64,000 nucleotides of DNA from Actinotalea soli (GTDB lineage Bacteria; Actinomycetota; Actinomycetes; Actinomycetales; Cellulomonadaceae), in assembly GCF_017565425.1 (NCBI RefSeq), contig NZ_JAGEMK010000001.1:558001-622000 (forward strand). Direction: 5' to 3'. Below, in pieces: positions 24,783 to 30,146 of the stretch. Each line of letters begins with the position of its first letter. Position 1 is the first letter of the stretch. Made by a program: the position numbers and the translations under genes. The notes beneath the pieces are model-generated. The model made no database searches. It was not told the DNA's origin and saw only the letters and a program-made list of their open reading frames with translations.

Positions 24783-26138
24783 TCACGCCTCCGAGCGGTG
24801 AGACCCGGCTGCCTTCGTGCTGGCCACCTGTCCTGGGGTGACGAGGGGGGTCGTCGTCGGCCGGATACCGACCTCGCGCAGCGCGGTCTCGTAGGCCTGG
24901 GCCGCGCCTGCGAGGTCGCCGTGGGCCAGGAGGCGGTCGCCCAGCGCGCGCCAGACCGAGGCCGACTCGCGGCCAGCTGACATCATGCCGAGCATGTCCG
25001 CCGCCCAGCGGTAGGCAGCATGGGCCTCGTCGAGAGAGCCCTGGGCGGCGAGGACGTCGCCCAGGAGGATGTGGCCGTTGCAGCGGTCCAGGGTGGCGGT
25101 CTCGTCGAGCCGTCCGAGCCCAGACCGCGCGAGGTCCTCGGCCGCGTCGATTTCCCCGAGAAGCAGACGGGCGCGCCCACTCTCGAAGTCGCATCGCGCG
25201 AGCTCCACCTCCGAGCCCACGAGGGCGAGGTTCGTCTGTGCGCGGCCGAGCTGCTCGAGGGCTGCCTCGGGCTCGGGGGCGTCCAGGCGCAGGAGCAACC
25301 ATGCGTAGTGCAGGCGAAGCCGTGGCACGTCGCGGCTGCTGGCTCCTTCGCTCAGGTAGGCGAGGGCTCGCTCGGTCAGCCGGCGCGCCTCGGCGAGGTC
25401 ACCACGCCCCTCGGCGACCAGCGAGGCGTTCCAGTAGATGCTGCCCCGGCCTCGCATCGTGCCCGCCTCGTCGGCGAGCCTGACCAGCTCGGCCGCCCGG
25501 TGCGCTGCGAAGAGCAGGTCACCCCGCTCGTAGTAGGACCACAGGATCGTCGAGGCGAGCCTCAGGTGCTCGTCCGTCCCGGCGACCCCGAGGGTCTCGA
25601 GCTCCTGGAGCACCTGCTCCCCGAGCTCGATGCTGTGCCCGAGGTCACCGGCTTCGTGGTACGCGGCGACGAGGCTGGTCGCGAGGGTGGCCGCCTCCGT
25701 CGCACGGCCCCTCAGCCGCGCCTCCTTGAGGAGCGGCTCGAGGACGTTGATCGACTCGTCGAGCTCACCCAGGGCCTCGTGGGCCTGGGCGAGGGCGTGC
25801 AGGGCCTCGGCGTGGTGCCTCGGCGCGATCGTCGAGAGGTCGAGGGCGAGGAGCCGGTCCCGTGCTTCTTCGGCGGCGCCGTTCGCGAGGGCCAGGCGTG
25901 CGAAACCGATCTCCAGACGGGCGCGCTCCTCGCTCGGAGCCTTGTCCCCGTGGCGCAGGTAGTCCGCCGTGGTGCCCAGCCGGTCGGCCAGGACCGCGAG
26001 GGCCGCGTCCGTCGGCATGCGACGTCCGGCCTCGATCAGCGAGATGTAGCTCGGAGAGAAGTCCTCACCCGCCAGGGCGGTCTGGGACATCCCGGCACGG
26101 GTGCGCTCGTCACGGAGTCGCTCGGAGAGTTCAGTCAC
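24783..26138 (-). CDS. XRE-HTH/TPR transcriptional regulator (RRNPP-like architecture)
   Basis: A 451-residue cytoplasmic protein. An XRE-type helix-turn-helix fills residues 3-60 (LSERLRDERTRAGMSQTALAG, then SPSYISLIEAGRRMPTDAALAVLADRLG). The remaining 370 residues are helical tandem repeats with TPR spacing, for example HAEALHALAQAHEALGELDES and DRCNGHILLGDVLAAQGSLDEA, ending in a short disordered tail. DNA-binding HTH plus a C-terminal TPR superhelix is the layout of RRNPP peptide receptors (PlcR, Rgg, PrgX) and of some actinobacterial regulators. The gene starts at GTG 26138, 8 nt after a -10 box, so the mRNA looks leaderless. Immediately upstream on the same strand is a 42-codon secreted-peptide gene, its candidate ligand source. 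Ligand and targets are inferred, not shown. Confidence 0.85.
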   Translation of the reverse strand: MTELSERLRDERTRAGMSQTALAGEDFSPSYISLIEAGRRMPTDAALAVLADRLGTTADYLRHGDKAPSEERARLEIGFARLALANGAAEEARDRLLALDLSTIAPRHHAEALHALAQAHEALGELDESINVLEPLLKEARLRGRATEAATLATSLVAAYHEAGDLGHSIELGEQVLQELETLGVAGTDEHLRLASTILWSYYERGDLLFAAHRAAELVRLADEAGTMRGRGSIYWNASLVAEGRGDLAEARRLTERALAYLSEGASSRDVPRLRLHYAWLLLRLDAPEPEAALEQLGRAQTNLALVGSEVELARCDFESGRARLLLGEIDAAEDLARSGLGRLDETATLDRCNGHILLGDVLAAQGSLDEAHAAYRWAADMLGMMSAGRESASVWRALGDRLLAHGDLAGAAQAYETALREVGIRPTTTPLVTPGQVASTKAAGSHRSEA

Positions 26139-26146
26139 AGTTGGTC

Positions 26147-26152
26147 ACTCTA
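26147..26152 (-). promoter_or_regulatory. -10 element of the regulator gene
   Basis: TAGAGT on the minus strand ends 8 nt before the GTG at 26138, predicting a leaderless transcript for the regulator independent of the peptide gene. No clear -35 is present. Confidence 0.5.
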
Positions 26153-26163
26153 GCCTTGACATC

Positions 26164-26179
26164 GCCCTCGCGGGAGGGC
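26164..26179. terminator. Hairpin between the peptide gene and the regulator
   Basis: GCCCTC and GAGGGC pair across a 4-nt loop, inside a GC-rich stretch 31 nt after the peptide stop. It could end or attenuate the peptide transcript before the regulator promoter. Confidence 0.4.
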
Positions 26180-26210
26180 CCCGGTCCCTCCGAACGGGTG
26201 AAATCTTCAA

Positions 26211-26339
26211 CTACTGCTTGCAGCAGCCGGTGCTGCCTATCGCGGTGACCGTGACGGCGTCACCAGGGACAGGCAGCCCGACGACGGCGAGACCCAGGGT
26301 CAGCAGGGCGGTCGAGACGATCTTCGTGGTGCGGTTCAT
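26211..26339 (-). CDS. Small secreted peptide precursor, candidate pheromone
   Basis: A 42-residue product read from ATG 26339 to TAG 26211. GAGGAG lies 5 nt upstream, one of the best ribosome-binding sites in the window. The start MNRTTK is basic, residues 7-22 are hydrophobic (IVSTALLTLGLAVVGL), and PVPGDA gives a plausible signal-peptidase site after Ala28. The mature part would be about 14 residues, VTVTAIGSTGCCKQ, with two adjacent Cys near the end. It lies 72 nt upstream of the XRE/TPR regulator on the same strand, as signalling-peptide genes often flank RRNPP receptors in Firmicutes. Alternatives are a small secreted antimicrobial or metal-binding peptide. The coding nature is supported by ribosome-binding site, signal sequence and placement; the role is inference. 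Confidence 0.65.
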   Translation of the reverse strand: MNRTTKIVSTALLTLGLAVVGLPVPGDAVTVTAIGSTGCCKQ

Positions 26340-26377
26340 GGAGGCTCCTCGGTAGGACGACGCGGTGTGTCACGACG

Positions 26378-26406
26378 ACTATGACAGGATTCCTCCGCGT
26401 TTGCAC
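26378..26406 (-). promoter_or_regulatory. Candidate promoter of the peptide gene
   Basis: CATAGT (26378-26383, minus strand) is a fair -10; 17 nt upstream the -35 position reads GTGCAA, far from consensus. A weak -35 with repeats just upstream is typical of an activator-dependent promoter. Start of transcription would be near 26371. Confidence 0.35.
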
Positions 26407-26493: not shown

Positions 26494-26618
26494 GCGCGTT
26501 CAGAGACGAGGCTCACAGCATCAGATCTCGCCTGCGGCAGCGGGAGTCATTCCCTTCATGACCACCGCATCGCCTGAGTCGCCAGGATCTGCGCCTCACC
26601 CGCCGCGAGAGCTCGTGA

Positions 26619-27629
26619 TCAGCCGCGAGCGGCCTCGGCCACACGGAGCACCGCGCGCTCGACGGCGAAGACGGGATCCTTGCCAGCGCCCTTGACCTCG
26701 GCATCGGCCCGGGCGACCGCCGTGATCGCGGCGGCCAGGGACTCCGGTGTCCAGCCGACGAGCTCTCTGCGTGCCCGGTCGACCTGCCAGGGCGCCAGAC
26801 CCAGATCACGTGCGGGGTCGAGGCCACGTCCCCGCGCGGCCGCGACCTTCGCCAGGAGCCGGAGCTTCGCGGCGAGGGCTGCGACGACGGGGACGGGGTC
26901 AGAACCGGTGGCGAGGGCGTGCCGGAGGAGCGCGACCGCCTCGCCGGCCCGGCCCGAGGCCGCCGCGTCGGCAACCTTGAACCCGGTCGCCTCGACCCGG
27001 CCGCCGTAGTAGCGCGCCACCGTCTGCTCGGTGATCACACCGCTGGTGTCCGCCGCGAGCTGCTGGCAGGCCGCGGCGAGCTCGCGCAGGTCCGCGCCAC
27101 AGGCCTCGAGCAGTGCCCGCAGCCCCGAGGCATCGGCCCGTCGGCCCGCTCGGCGCAGCTCCGCCGTGGCGAAGGCGCTCTTGTCTGCCTCACGCTTGAT
27201 CGGGTCGCAGGCCACCACGAGCGCCCCCGCGGCCCGGATCGCGTCGAGGGCCTTCTTGCCCCGCACCCCACCTCCGTGGACGAGGACGAGGACCACGTCC
27301 TCCGCGGGTTCGGCGACGTAGTCGACGACGTCCGCGAGGGCGGCGTCGGTGCCGGCGTGCAGCTCCTCGACCACCACGACCCGGGGCTCGTCGAACAGGC
27401 TCGGGCTCACGACCGCACGGAGCCGACCGCCCTCGTAGCCGGCTGCCGAGACCCGGGTCACCTCGACCGCGGGGTCGGCCGCGCGCGCCTGGGCCAGCAC
27501 ACGGTCGACGGCCCTCTCCGCCAGGAGGGCCTCGGTCCCCGTGACGAGGACCACGGGGGCGGGGGTCACCTCGTCCCAGGGGATGCCCGAGCTCGTCGAG
27601 GGCGCACTGCGTCGCGGGGGACGTGCCAT
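26619..27629 (-). CDS. holA: DNA polymerase III subunit delta
   Basis: Clamp-loader subunit that opens the beta sliding clamp. The 336-residue protein has the HolA layout: an N-terminal RecA-like domain (VLVTGTEALLAERAVDRVL, then SLFDEPRVVVVEEL) and C-terminal helical domains (LREL AAACQQLAADT and LAAKLRLLAKVAAARG). The ATG at 27629 has GGGAGG upstream; the longer open frame runs into comEC. Location after comEC is the standard comEA-comEC-holA order. Confidence 0.93.
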   Translation of the reverse strand: MARPPRRSAPSTSSGIPWDEVTPAPVVLVTGTEALLAERAVDRVLAQARAADPAVEVTRVSAAGYEGGRLRAVVSPSLFDEPRVVVVEELHAGTDAALADVVDYVAEPAEDVVLVLVHGGGVRGKKALDAIRAAGALVVACDPIKREADKSAFATAELRRAGRRADASGLRALLEACGADLRELAAACQQLAADTSGVITEQTVARYYGGRVEATGFKVADAAASGRAGEAVALLRHALATGSDPVPVVAALAAKLRLLAKVAAARGRGLDPARDLGLAPWQVDRARRELVGWTPESLAAAITAVARADAEVKGAGKDPVFAVERAVLRVAEAARG

Positions 27630-27654
27630 GGCATCAGCCTCCCATGGACCACCG

Positions 27655-29217
27655 TCATGCCATGGTCCGGCGCCGCGCGGCCCTGAGGGCGGCCGCGAGA
27701 ACGCCCGCCGTGAGCACCGCGAGCAGGACGGCGCCGCCCGGCCCGGAGGGCCACGCGATCGTCGCGCCCGGGAGGTCGGCGGCAGCCCGCGCGACCCACG
27801 CGATCCAGCTCGCGGGGACGGCAGCCGCCTGGGCCAGCAGCGCACCGCATGACGGCGCCCAGGGCGCGACGAGGGTCGCCAGGACCCCCAGCAGCGTCGC
27901 GGGCACCAGGGCCGGGGTCGCCAGGAGGTTCGCCGGGACGGCGTAGGGCCCGACCACGGGCTCGAGCAGGACCAGGACCGGGGCGCACACCGCCTGGGCC
28001 GAGAGGGGGACGGCCAGGAGCATCCCTCGCGGGCGCCCGGCGTCCAGGGCCCGCACCAGGGCCGGGGCCAGCAGGACGATCGCCCCCGTCGCGAGCACCG
28101 AGAGGATGAACCCGTACGACCGCGCGAGCCAGGGGTCGAGCACGACCAGCACCACGACGACGGCGCCCAGGGCGGGAGCGGCGCGAGACGGCCGACCGAC
28201 CAGCAGCCCGACCAGGCCGAGCGAGCCCATCAGCCCGGCGCGCATCACGCTCGGCTGAGGGTGCACCAGCAGCACGAACCCCAGCATCGTGACCGCGGCG
28301 ACGACCACGCGGACGGACCGCGGCGCCCCGGACACCGCGAGCAGGGCCAGGACCGTGCTCGAGACGATCGCGAAGTGCGCCCCCGAGACTGCCGTGACGT
28401 GCGTCAGGCTCACCGTGCGCATGGCCGCGTCGAGGTCCTCCGGCACCTTGCGGGTATCGCCGATCGCGGTCCCGGGGACGAGCCCTCGGGCGTCAGGGGC
28501 CAGGTCGTCGCTGGCCTCGAGGAGGGCCTCACGCGCAGCGGCCACCCACCGCGCCGAGCCCTCAGGTGCGGCGAGGACCTCGGGCGGCCCCGTCGTGCTG
28601 AGGACGCCGAGGGTCGGCGCCCCTGGCTCGCCGCCTCGTAGTCGCCCGGCGACCCGGACCTGGGCCCCTCGCTCGGCCGCCTGCCAGCTCGGGTCACCGA
28701 TCACGACGACGCTCGCCGCCGCGCGTCCCGCCCGTCCCCGGACCGTGATGTGCTCGACGCGCAGGACCACACGGTACTGAGACGGTTCGACCTCGGTCTG
28801 CCAGGGGGACACGACCGGCACGGGCTCGGAGGCCACCCGACCGACCAGCGCGACGACCGCACGTTCCTCGAGCGACCGGGCGAGGTCGCCCGAGCCACGC
28901 AGGTGCGCCTGTGCTGCGACCGAGGAGAGGCAGCAGGCCACCGTGACGACGGCGAGCCAGATCGTCCACCCCGGCCGCCCCGGTGCGCACCGGTGCGTGC
29001 CCGGCCCGGTGCGGCGAGGCCGAGCTCGCCGACCGGCGCCTCGCCGTCCTCGGCGGTGCCCAGGGAGCAGCAGCGCCGCCCCCACGGCCGCGACGCAGGT
29101 CGCCACCACGCACGCGAGAAGCAGCACCCGCAGGGGCAGGGTCACCCCCACCACGCAGGTCAACCAGCCGGCGGCTGCGGCCGGCACCAGGCGGAGGTCG
29201 ACCCCTGTCGGCACCAT
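27655..29217 (-). CDS. comEC: ComEC/Rec2 DNA-uptake channel, lacking the hydrolase domain
   Basis: A 520-residue inner-membrane protein with about ten hydrophobic segments. It shows an N-terminal soluble (OB-like) region around residues 120-230 and the competence domain, with GLVPGTAIGD, HVTAVSGAHFAIV and PSVMRAGLMGSLGLVG motifs. Typical ComEC proteins are 700-800 residues and end in a metallo-beta-lactamase-like nuclease domain; here the gene ends after the membrane domain and holA follows at once. The ATG shares one base with the comEA stop. If functional it would move single-stranded DNA inward but need a separate nuclease. Confidence 0.9.
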   Translation of the reverse strand: MVPTGVDLRLVPAAAAGWLTCVVGVTLPLRVLLLACVVATCVAAVGAALLLPGHRRGRRGAGRRARPRRTGPGTHRCAPGRPGWTIWLAVVTVACCLSSVAAQAHLRGSGDLARSLEERAVVALVGRVASEPVPVVSPWQTEVEPSQYRVVLRVEHITVRGRAGRAAASVVVIGDPSWQAAERGAQVRVAGRLRGGEPGAPTLGVLSTTGPPEVLAAPEGSARWVAAAREALLEASDDLAPDARGLVPGTAIGDTRKVPEDLDAAMRTVSLTHVTAVSGAHFAIVSSTVLALLAVSGAPRSVRVVVAAVTMLGFVLLVHPQPSVMRAGLMGSLGLVGLLVGRPSRAAPALGAVVVVLVVLDPWLARSYGFILSVLATGAIVLLAPALVRALDAGRPRGMLLAVPLSAQAVCAPVLVLLEPVVGPYAVPANLLATPALVPATLLGVLATLVAPWAPSCGALLAQAAAVPASWIAWVARAAADLPGATIAWPSGPGGAVLLAVLTAGVLAAALRAARRRTMA

Positions 29218-30146
29218 CAGACGCGGACGAGATCACGGAGCCCGGCGAGCAGGGCCGGACCGATGCCGGTGACCTCCTGGAGCTCCTCGACCGAGGTGAA
29301 GGGTCCCCTCGAGCGGTGGTCCACGATGCGCTGGGCCAGCACCGGCCCGATCCCCGGCAGCTCCTCGAGCTCGGCCGCCCCGGCGGTGTTGAGGTCGACC
29401 AGCACTCCCCCGCCTCCGGCAGGACCCGCCGCCGAGGTCGTCCCCGGGCCGGCGTCGGGTCCCGCCGGAGGAGGCAGGGCCGCGGCCTCGGTGGCGTCGG
29501 GGACGTACACCTGCTCACCGTCGACCAGCACCTGGGCGAGGTTGACGGCCGCCAGCTCCGCCCCGGGGGTCGCACCCCCCACAGCCGTGATCGCGTCAGC
29601 CACCCGGGCGCCCTCGGAGAGCTCGACGATGCCAGGCGCCGCAACCTGTCCCGCGACGTGGACCACCACGACCGCGGCGCCGCCGTCCTCGTCCGTCCCG
29701 GGCCCACCGTCCTCCGTGGGGTCGCCGTCCACCGGCGCGGAGGCCCCGGGCTCGCCCGTCGCGGTCGTCGCCCCCGCTGTCGCGCCGTCCCCTGCCGCAC
29801 CCCCGTCGGGGCGCTCGCCCTCGTGGACCCAGGAGGTCGACGGGTCCTCGCCCAGCTCGACCGACGGTCCCGGCACGCGAGTCAGGGAACGCACCACGAC
29901 CAGGCCCGTGAGCAGCGCGAGCACCACCGCTGCTGCCAACGCGGCCGCGGCAGGGGTCCGCCACCGGGGCGGGCCGACCTCCTCGGGGCGCGGGTGGTCG
30001 AGCGGATGCCCGTGCGCGGCCGTGTAGGCCCCGACCGCGGCGGCCATGGCTCGCTCCCGGAGGTCCTCCCGCGGCCCCCTGTCGGCGTCCGCGAGCTCGA
30101 CGAGCCTCAGGTGCACCTCGTCACGGGAACCTCGGGGGTCGCTCAC
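29217..30146 (-). CDS. comEA: ComEA-like DNA receptor
   Basis: A 309-residue membrane-anchored protein: a cytoplasmic N-terminus of about 65 residues, one hydrophobic segment (AAAALAAAVVLALLTGLVVV), a Glu/Gly/Thr-rich linker, an SLBB domain (VVVHVAGQVAAPGIVEL to YVPD) and a C-terminal helix-hairpin-helix pair (VDLNTAGAAELEELPGIGP, then VTGIGPALLAGL). Binds double-stranded DNA outside the membrane for uptake by ComEC. Start is GTG. Pilus genes for competence are not in the window. Confidence 0.92.
   Translation of the reverse strand: MSDPRGSRDEVHLRLVELADADRGPREDLRERAMAAAVGAYTAAHGHPLDHPRPEEVGPPRWRTPAAAALAAAVVLALLTGLVVVRSLTRVPGPSVELGEDPSTSWVHEGERPDGGAAGDGATAGATTATGEPGASAPVDGDPTEDGGPGTDEDGGAAVVVVHVAGQVAAPGIVELSEGARVADAITAVGGATPGAELAAVNLAQVLVDGEQVYVPDATEAAALPPPAGPDAGPGTTSAAGPAGGGGVLVDLNTAGAAELEELPGIGPVLAQRIVDHRSRGPFTSVEELQEVTGIGPALLAGLRDLVRV

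Follow-up and report, generated by a model that had tools for sequence, protein, structure and literature searches.

A conserved CC-tailed peptide gene beside an XRE-TPR regulator: a candidate actinobacterial variant of RRNPP-type signalling

RRNPP-type signalling has been described mainly in Firmicutes, where PlcR, Rgg and PrgX carry an XRE-type HTH. We asked whether a regulator with HTH and TPR domains and a short, secreted-looking ORF lying next to it in an actinobacterium, Actinotalea soli, are partners in a comparable circuit. The window, that is the whole 64,000-nucleotide stretch of DNA analysed, contains both genes together with three inverted repeats (Table 1).

The small gene and its neighbour

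The sequence-only reading of this locus had described a GTG-started XRE-HTH and TPR protein of 451 residues, and this was confirmed by the ORF coordinates and by the Pfam matches HTH_31 (43.1 bits) and TPR_2 (42.9 bits, cut-off 27 for both); HTH_3 also scores above its Pfam cut-off in the N-terminal part. The 42-codon gene that it had placed upstream on the same strand, with a good ribosome-binding site, was found as described, with a gap of 72 nt between the peptide stop codon and the regulator GTG. As RRNPP criteria, PMC10075063 asks for adjacent genes that encode a receptor with a TPR domain and 250-500 aa and a propeptide with a Sec signal and 10-100 aa; it reports an RRNPP_detector survey that scanned Firmicutes and viruses, and describes the signals of Actinobacteria as typically enzyme-made small molecules. 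The size and TPR_2 match of the regulator fit the receptor range, and the adjacent 42-aa propeptide fits the size range of the precursors, its Sec signal having been called by a charge-plus-hydropathy rule and not by SignalP.

Table 1. Coordinates of the features at the locus, in window positions.
Feature	Position	Strand	Remarks
XRE-HTH + TPR regulator (candidate intracellular receptor)	24783..26138	minus	451 aa, GTG start
42-codon gene, CC-tailed peptide MNRTTKIVSTALLTLGLAVVGLPVPGDAVTVTAIGSTGCCKQ (candidate pheromone precursor)	26211..26339	minus	conserved, under purifying selection, co-occurs with the regulator
Ribosome-binding site of the peptide gene, GAGGAG	26345..26350	minus	last base 5 nt before the ATG
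O1, GTCA-N9-TGAC dyad	26144..26160	minus	22 nt before the regulator start
O2, GTCA-N9-TGAC dyad	26369..26385	minus	46 nt before the peptide start; strict form TGTCATAGTN5TGACA
O3, third dyad	26546..26562	minus	177 bp upstream of O2, between holA and the peptide gene
Putative -10 of the peptide gene, CATAGT	26378..26383	minus	within O2; predicted from the sequence
Putative -10 of the regulator, TAGAGT	26147..26152	minus	within O1; predicted, with a similar box in most relatives

The pair is present in a single copy in the 3.63 Mb genome and is located between holA and rpsT (names read from the ORFs), a stretch in which no other evident gene was found. Directly upstream, at window positions 26619-30146, lie ORFs reading as comEA, comEC and holA; the listing of genome sites has no GTCA-N9-TGAC dyad near comEA (window position about 30146) and thus provides no evidence for competence control. 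No NCBIfam model matched the window peptide up to E 1, and its sole Pfam match, PGPGW (E 0.01, 15.8 bits), is below the cut-off of 23.3. No family above cut-off was obtained from Pfam, searched with the window peptide, or from NCBIfam, searched with this and five other peptides, among which the L165 peptide gave a sub-cut-off match to Phr_nterm (E 0.053).

The 42-codon ORF is a real gene. In 23 independent pairs of equal length and 75-99% DNA identity, the pooled dN/dS of the peptide gene is 0.26 (pS 0.23, pN 0.07), and pN is smaller than pS in 22 of them; a near-neutral ratio, which the earlier reading had named as refuting its proposal, did not occur, the value being 0.26 and not near 1. An alignment of 24 peptides, with five from other genera, shows no variation at M1, G38, C39 and C40, and the best-conserved part is the C-terminal tail, usually GSTGCC[KR]x with variants, behind a signal-like N-terminus.

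The peptide and the regulator are also found in the same genomes. Regulator matches at E <= 1e-10 occur in 31 of 99 genomes, the host's own included, and in 19/19 of the genus. The peptide profile A1, from which L026 was excluded, gave 24 matches at E <= 2.8e-11 in these 99 genomes and the next only at 4.1e-5, the weak matches past this gap falling within longer open frames. Among the 61 genomes of the family, the 24 that are A1-positive (19 of the genus together with G023, G033, G037, G047 and G054) are exactly the regulator-bearing ones, while the remaining 37 have neither peptide nor regulator at the thresholds used; in G010 the regulator is interrupted by a contig end. At the order level, A1 missed the CC peptides of G074, G075, G077, G091 and G093, which were revealed by adjacency.

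Pairing across relatives and the types of tail

We examined the neighbourhood of the regulator in three sets of relatives. In the first (L003-L032, 30 loci), a CC-tailed signal-like ORF lies upstream on the same strand in 25 loci and is divergent in four (L027-L030); none was found in L032, whose regulator has 28% identity. The second set consists of 79 titled loci (from the best 80 of 101 matches, headed by Actinotalea sp. C106), which come from Actinotalea, Cellulomonas, Pengzhenrongella, Jiangella, Longispora, one Streptomyces and several MAGs. A CC ORF was found by rule within 600 nt upstream in 76/79, against 0/77, 0/77, 2/76 and 0/75 in same-sized control windows, and in the same ORFs the dipeptides GG (43/79) and CR (42/79) are also frequent, the other 18 tried being present in 0-14. 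The three misses were recovered by inspection: L140, the same locus as L029, has a divergent ORF with a longer tail, and in L136 and L138 the CC ORF is downstream and convergent.

The largest set comprises 166 regulator loci, with the C-terminal fragments L177 and L178 excluded and L148-L164 read separately. An adjacent signal-like ORF with CC in its last 15 residues, with a ribosome-binding site required and a distance of at most about 500 nt on either side, is present in 120/166, compared to 0/163, 0/156 and 0/166 in controls. Since certain genomes enter the 166 twice, under different handles, we also counted 86 representatives at 80% identity, 53 of which have the CC-tailed ORF. Any adjacent signal-like ORF was found in 142/166 (controls 9/163, 5/156 and 3/166). 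With windows made slightly wider and the misses read less strictly, the 166 loci were labelled as 127 CC (121 by rule and 6 relaxed), 11 WP, 9 AGP, 1 other and 18 without a recognisable peptide, at least one of these last, L199, having just 238 nt upstream. The coupling of the peptide with the HTH-TPR protein is therefore well supported: the proposed pairing is borne out and is broader than had been guessed from the one locus, and homologous loci are not devoid of the small ORF, a conserved one adjoining the regulator. We reject the explanation that a chance ORF happens to lie beside an ordinary regulator, for which no supporting point was found and whose probability is negligible given the adjacency (120/166 versus zero in controls), the dN/dS and the co-occurrence of peptide and regulator.

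The regulator itself extends further. Searches of the phylum and the class found it in 17/396, 14/27 and 96/394 genomes at their respective thresholds, a part of which was fetched; the last figure is for the profile at E <= 1e-40 in sampled genomes of the window's class, where the pairing was examined in part. Relatives with 32-35% identity occur in 15 plasmid records. In the four plasmid loci opened, a CC-tailed ORF lies downstream in L142 and divergently in L144, and no such ORF was found near the regulators of L143 and L145. On the Streptomyces plasmid of L142 (4518-5025), two ORFs follow the regulator, next to a gene for a BTAD-domain regulator: the CC-tailed one, annotated as hypothetical, and another small one that looks secreted. 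Among phages and viruses, a single phage record matched part of the regulator and a single viral contig matched just its residues 8-55; no CC-tailed signal-like ORF was found in these stretches.

The pair is found in tandem, divergent and convergent order, and not all tails contain cysteine. In a second regulator clade (G233 and its kin, of another class), the adjacent peptide has 28-34 aa and ends in FPWPK, YPWPK, NWPHH or NWPKH. In the f21 group, 9/10 loci have a divergent precursor of 37-58 aa that contains an AGP core and lacks CC. Four loci (L185, L189, L191 and L200) have two different CC precursors flanking one regulator, an upstream one of 40 aa and a downstream one of 53-54 aa ending in GGSxxCC; L180, a relative of these, has an upstream peptide identical to that of Jiangella ureilytica L135. 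Two single loci also drew attention. In L245, a regulator of the CC group has a divergent peptide ending in AGPWGYPI instead of CC, which may be a natural ligand change, and L159 has a divergent 32-aa precursor ending in PWPHCC, where both tail types are joined.

When 86 regulators were placed in a quick maximum-likelihood tree (SH-aLRT support only, 29/83 inner branches open), a branch with a support of 100 separated 13 rows (9 WP, 1 AGP and 3 without a peptide) from the other 73 (59 CC, 1 other and 13 without). AGP and 'other' are single rows each, and the meaningful split is hence that of CC versus the rest. On the labelled rows, three changes of peptide type and nine of gene order are needed. 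The tail type thus tracks the regulator clade, as it would for a ligand and its receptor, and the two genes have been inherited together through repeated rearrangement, which argues for a partner relation and against a role that depends on position alone, for example that of a leader ORF.

Cysteine-sensing leader ORFs have been described in mycobacteria, and in the window's relatives a short ORF immediately 5' of the regulator, with Cys codons towards its end, would suit a cis-acting attenuator of this kind. Nevertheless, the ORF that lies upstream on the same strand in the window is divergent or convergent in many relatives, it has a signal-like N-terminus and is under purifying selection as a peptide, and the regulator has a putative promoter of its own. 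The leader explanation, which is extremely unlikely, was dropped on the grounds of the gene order.

Conserved dyads at the two putative promoters

Dyads overlap the putative promoters of both genes. The putative -10 box of the regulator is only 8 nt before the GTG, and the transcript is therefore perhaps leaderless; a scan for consensus sigma-70 promoters and terminators called nothing, neither putative -10 box included. In 30 loci there are 63 exact dyads with spacer 9 and 0-6 with other spacers from 3 to 18, and the 25 counted at spacer 19 arise from O1 in combination with the GTGAC start. In 68 tandem-order loci (out of 70, since the peptides of L065 and L107 fail the strict rule), spacer 9 gave 163 dyads, spacer 8 gave 22 and the others tested (4-15) gave 0-9. 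O1, O2 and O3 are exact in 58, 50 and 54 of these loci, all three in 29, and an exact dyad is missing in 10, 18 and 14, respectively. The distance between O2 and O3 is 163-166 bp in 22/36 relatives with both (range 142-203). The 700 nt upstream of the 70 loci contain 168 dyads, compared to a mean of 0.35 and a maximum of 2 after shuffling within 50-nt blocks, and control stretches contain 0 (70 stretches within genes) and 1 (66 downstream stretches).

On the genome scale, TGTCAN9TGACA is present in 18/19 genomes of the genus, each time at the peptide promoter; six genomes have one extra site and none has more than one. The bare GTCA-N9-TGAC, with 72 sites in the genome, is common and so cannot by itself name targets. 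Within the window, 0.78 matches to the strict pattern with up to 3 mismatches are expected by chance, and the weight of the dyads comes from their conservation. Their position and conservation suggest that they are bound by the regulator. Among the distant relatives of the 30-locus set, beyond the Cellulomonadaceae-type loci, only L030 showed several dyads: in this locus, which has 37% identity and a divergent CC peptide, three exact copies of GTCA-N9-TGAC lie upstream of the regulator. In L210-L219 and L165-L168, inverted repeats containing TTAA, read by eye, seem to lie between the divergent genes, which suggests that other clades may use clade-specific operators.

No recurrent second target was found with the strict dyad over the 19 genus genomes or with the TGTCATAGT form (<=1 mismatch) over 13 genus and 6 other genomes. 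The looser dyad gave none noticed by eye among the matches listed for 13 genus genomes, and these matches resemble coding sequence. Weaker targets beyond the pair may still exist. The lack of a second target, the main point of doubt about the signalling circuit proposed below, could mean that other sites are degenerate, that the regulator has protein targets as well or that the peptide is itself the effector.

In this last case, the peptide would be antimicrobial, or metal- or redox-active through its Cys-Cys, and the TPR protein would be its dedicated regulator, sensing a protein, a metabolite, a metal or thiol stress. Such a regulator would be expected to have its strict dyad nearly confined to the locus, as is the case here, and a conserved vicinal Cys pair could, as is generally known, bind metal. 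However, there is no immunity, export or modification gene between holA and rpsT, and another regulator clade keeps the pair with Cys-free tails (FPWPK, NWPHH), the tail type following the regulator clade in the way of a ligand. We consider an effector unlikely. The dyads over both promoters, together with a short hydrophobic ORF adjoining an XRE protein, could also belong to a toxin-antitoxin-like pair of a small hydrophobic toxin and an XRE antitoxin or repressor. This is very unlikely, as conservation peaks in the C-terminal tail, behind an N-terminus that resembles a signal, the regulator contains nine TPR-like pairs, the gene orientation varies and the genome has one copy of the pair; among the loci listed, 12 have an rpsT-like ORF adjoining the regulator.

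The candidate receptor and its relation to known systems

An AF2 model of the regulator (mean pLDDT 88.3, pTM 0.75), made with 41 sequences kept of the 49 first proposed (alignment A4), has HTH helices followed by nine helix pairs, and residues 429-451 are disordered. In Foldseek, generic TPR superhelices rank first and PlcR-PapR7-DNA (3u3w) is at rank 47 (TMt 0.58). A sequence profile search of the PDB matched PlcR over residues 3-183 (E 4.7e-7), behind designed and eukaryotic TPRs, which head the list instead of RRNPP receptors, and no RRNPP family is among the NCBIfam matches of the regulator. In TPR proteins, the groove is lined by the A-helix face. We looked for charged or aromatic positions that are >=80% conserved in the CC clade and at which the majority residue of the WP/AGP clade differs, with L248 excluded from the comparison, and found R205, D207, W236, R269, R273, R390 and W396. 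Five of these (R205, W236, R273, R390 and W396) are in TPR A-helices, two are in loops and none is in a B helix; position 396, Trp in the CC clade, is mostly Tyr in the WP/AGP clade. The genome encodes five OppA-type (SBP_bac_5) proteins, and since SBP_bac_5 is also present in 11/14 control genomes, the presence of an importer is weak evidence.

We consider it probable that the pair forms an autoregulated, RRNPP-like peptide pheromone circuit with an intracellular receptor. The circuit that we infer, from export, maturation and import to ligand binding, the sign of regulation and a downstream output, would operate as follows. The 42-residue precursor would be exported by Sec and cleaved by signal peptidase, and the signal would be a short C-terminal Cys-Cys piece, perhaps further trimmed or oxidised; the Cys-Cys may be disulfide-bonded or modified. 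The mature peptide would return through an oligopeptide ABC importer and bind in the groove of the regulator's TPR superhelix, thus presumably serving as the ligand of the regulator and acting between cells, by analogy with the RRNPP systems. The HTH would occupy the dyads lying over the promoter of the peptide gene (O2) and over that of the regulator (O1), with O3, further upstream, permitting looping, and peptide binding would alter DNA binding and so switch the expression of both genes. From the position of the operators, our guess is repression relieved by the peptide.

RRNPP systems (Rap, Rgg, NprR, PlcR and PrgX) have the same adjacent TPR receptor and Sec-signal propeptide; the regulator shares the XRE-type HTH of PlcR, Rgg and PrgX, and autoregulation is likely here too. 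The pair differs from them in its actinobacterial host, in the nine TPR-like pairs, in having no RRNPP NCBIfam match, in the Cys-Cys or WP tails and in that only the pair itself was seen as a target. In PlcR-PapR, an HTH and TPR protein is likewise encoded next to a small exported peptide, and PlcR is among the matches of the profile. However, PlcR is shorter (a 293-residue chain, compared to 451 aa), PapR is encoded downstream of it and the PlcR regulon is large, whereas no second target was seen here. PrgX is a repressor with more than one operator near a pheromone-controlled promoter and with looping, which resembles the several putative operators of our locus; the operators of pCF10, a plasmid, control conjugation genes and cCF10 derives from a lipoprotein signal peptide, whereas the present pair is chromosomal and its peptide has its own gene. 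NsdA is a TPR regulatory protein of actinobacteria, and its family (NF053720) matches weakly, all the scores seen being below the 75-bit cut-off (31.3 bits for the window regulator and 59.3 for L165).

A literature search found no actinobacterial XRE-TPR/peptide system, with subscription papers and preprints, which may describe one, outside its scope; the available parts of PMC10075063, PMC13220807 and PMC4748050 describe none. In summary, the pair makes a strong candidate for a form of RRNPP-type signalling that is new and widespread among actinobacteria. We are evenly divided on a wider proposal, that of an Actinomycetota-wide superfamily of peptide quorum-sensing systems, separate from the Firmicutes families, in which HTH-TPR receptors would be matched with dedicated Sec-exported pheromones of at least two ligand classes (Cys-Cys and Trp-Pro tails), receptor residues switching with the class. 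Perhaps the Cys-Cys tails function as a vicinal disulfide, or their signal is gated by redox state or by metal. The numerous natural pairs are material for studies of ligand-receptor specificity. The actinobacterial phylum is known for its antibiotics, and the circuit, if true, would add a layer of signalling in an antibiotic-producing phylum, for which synthetic peptides would be ready tools. The Cys-Cys tail would then be an unusual pheromone chemistry, possibly reporting the redox or metal state besides cell density.
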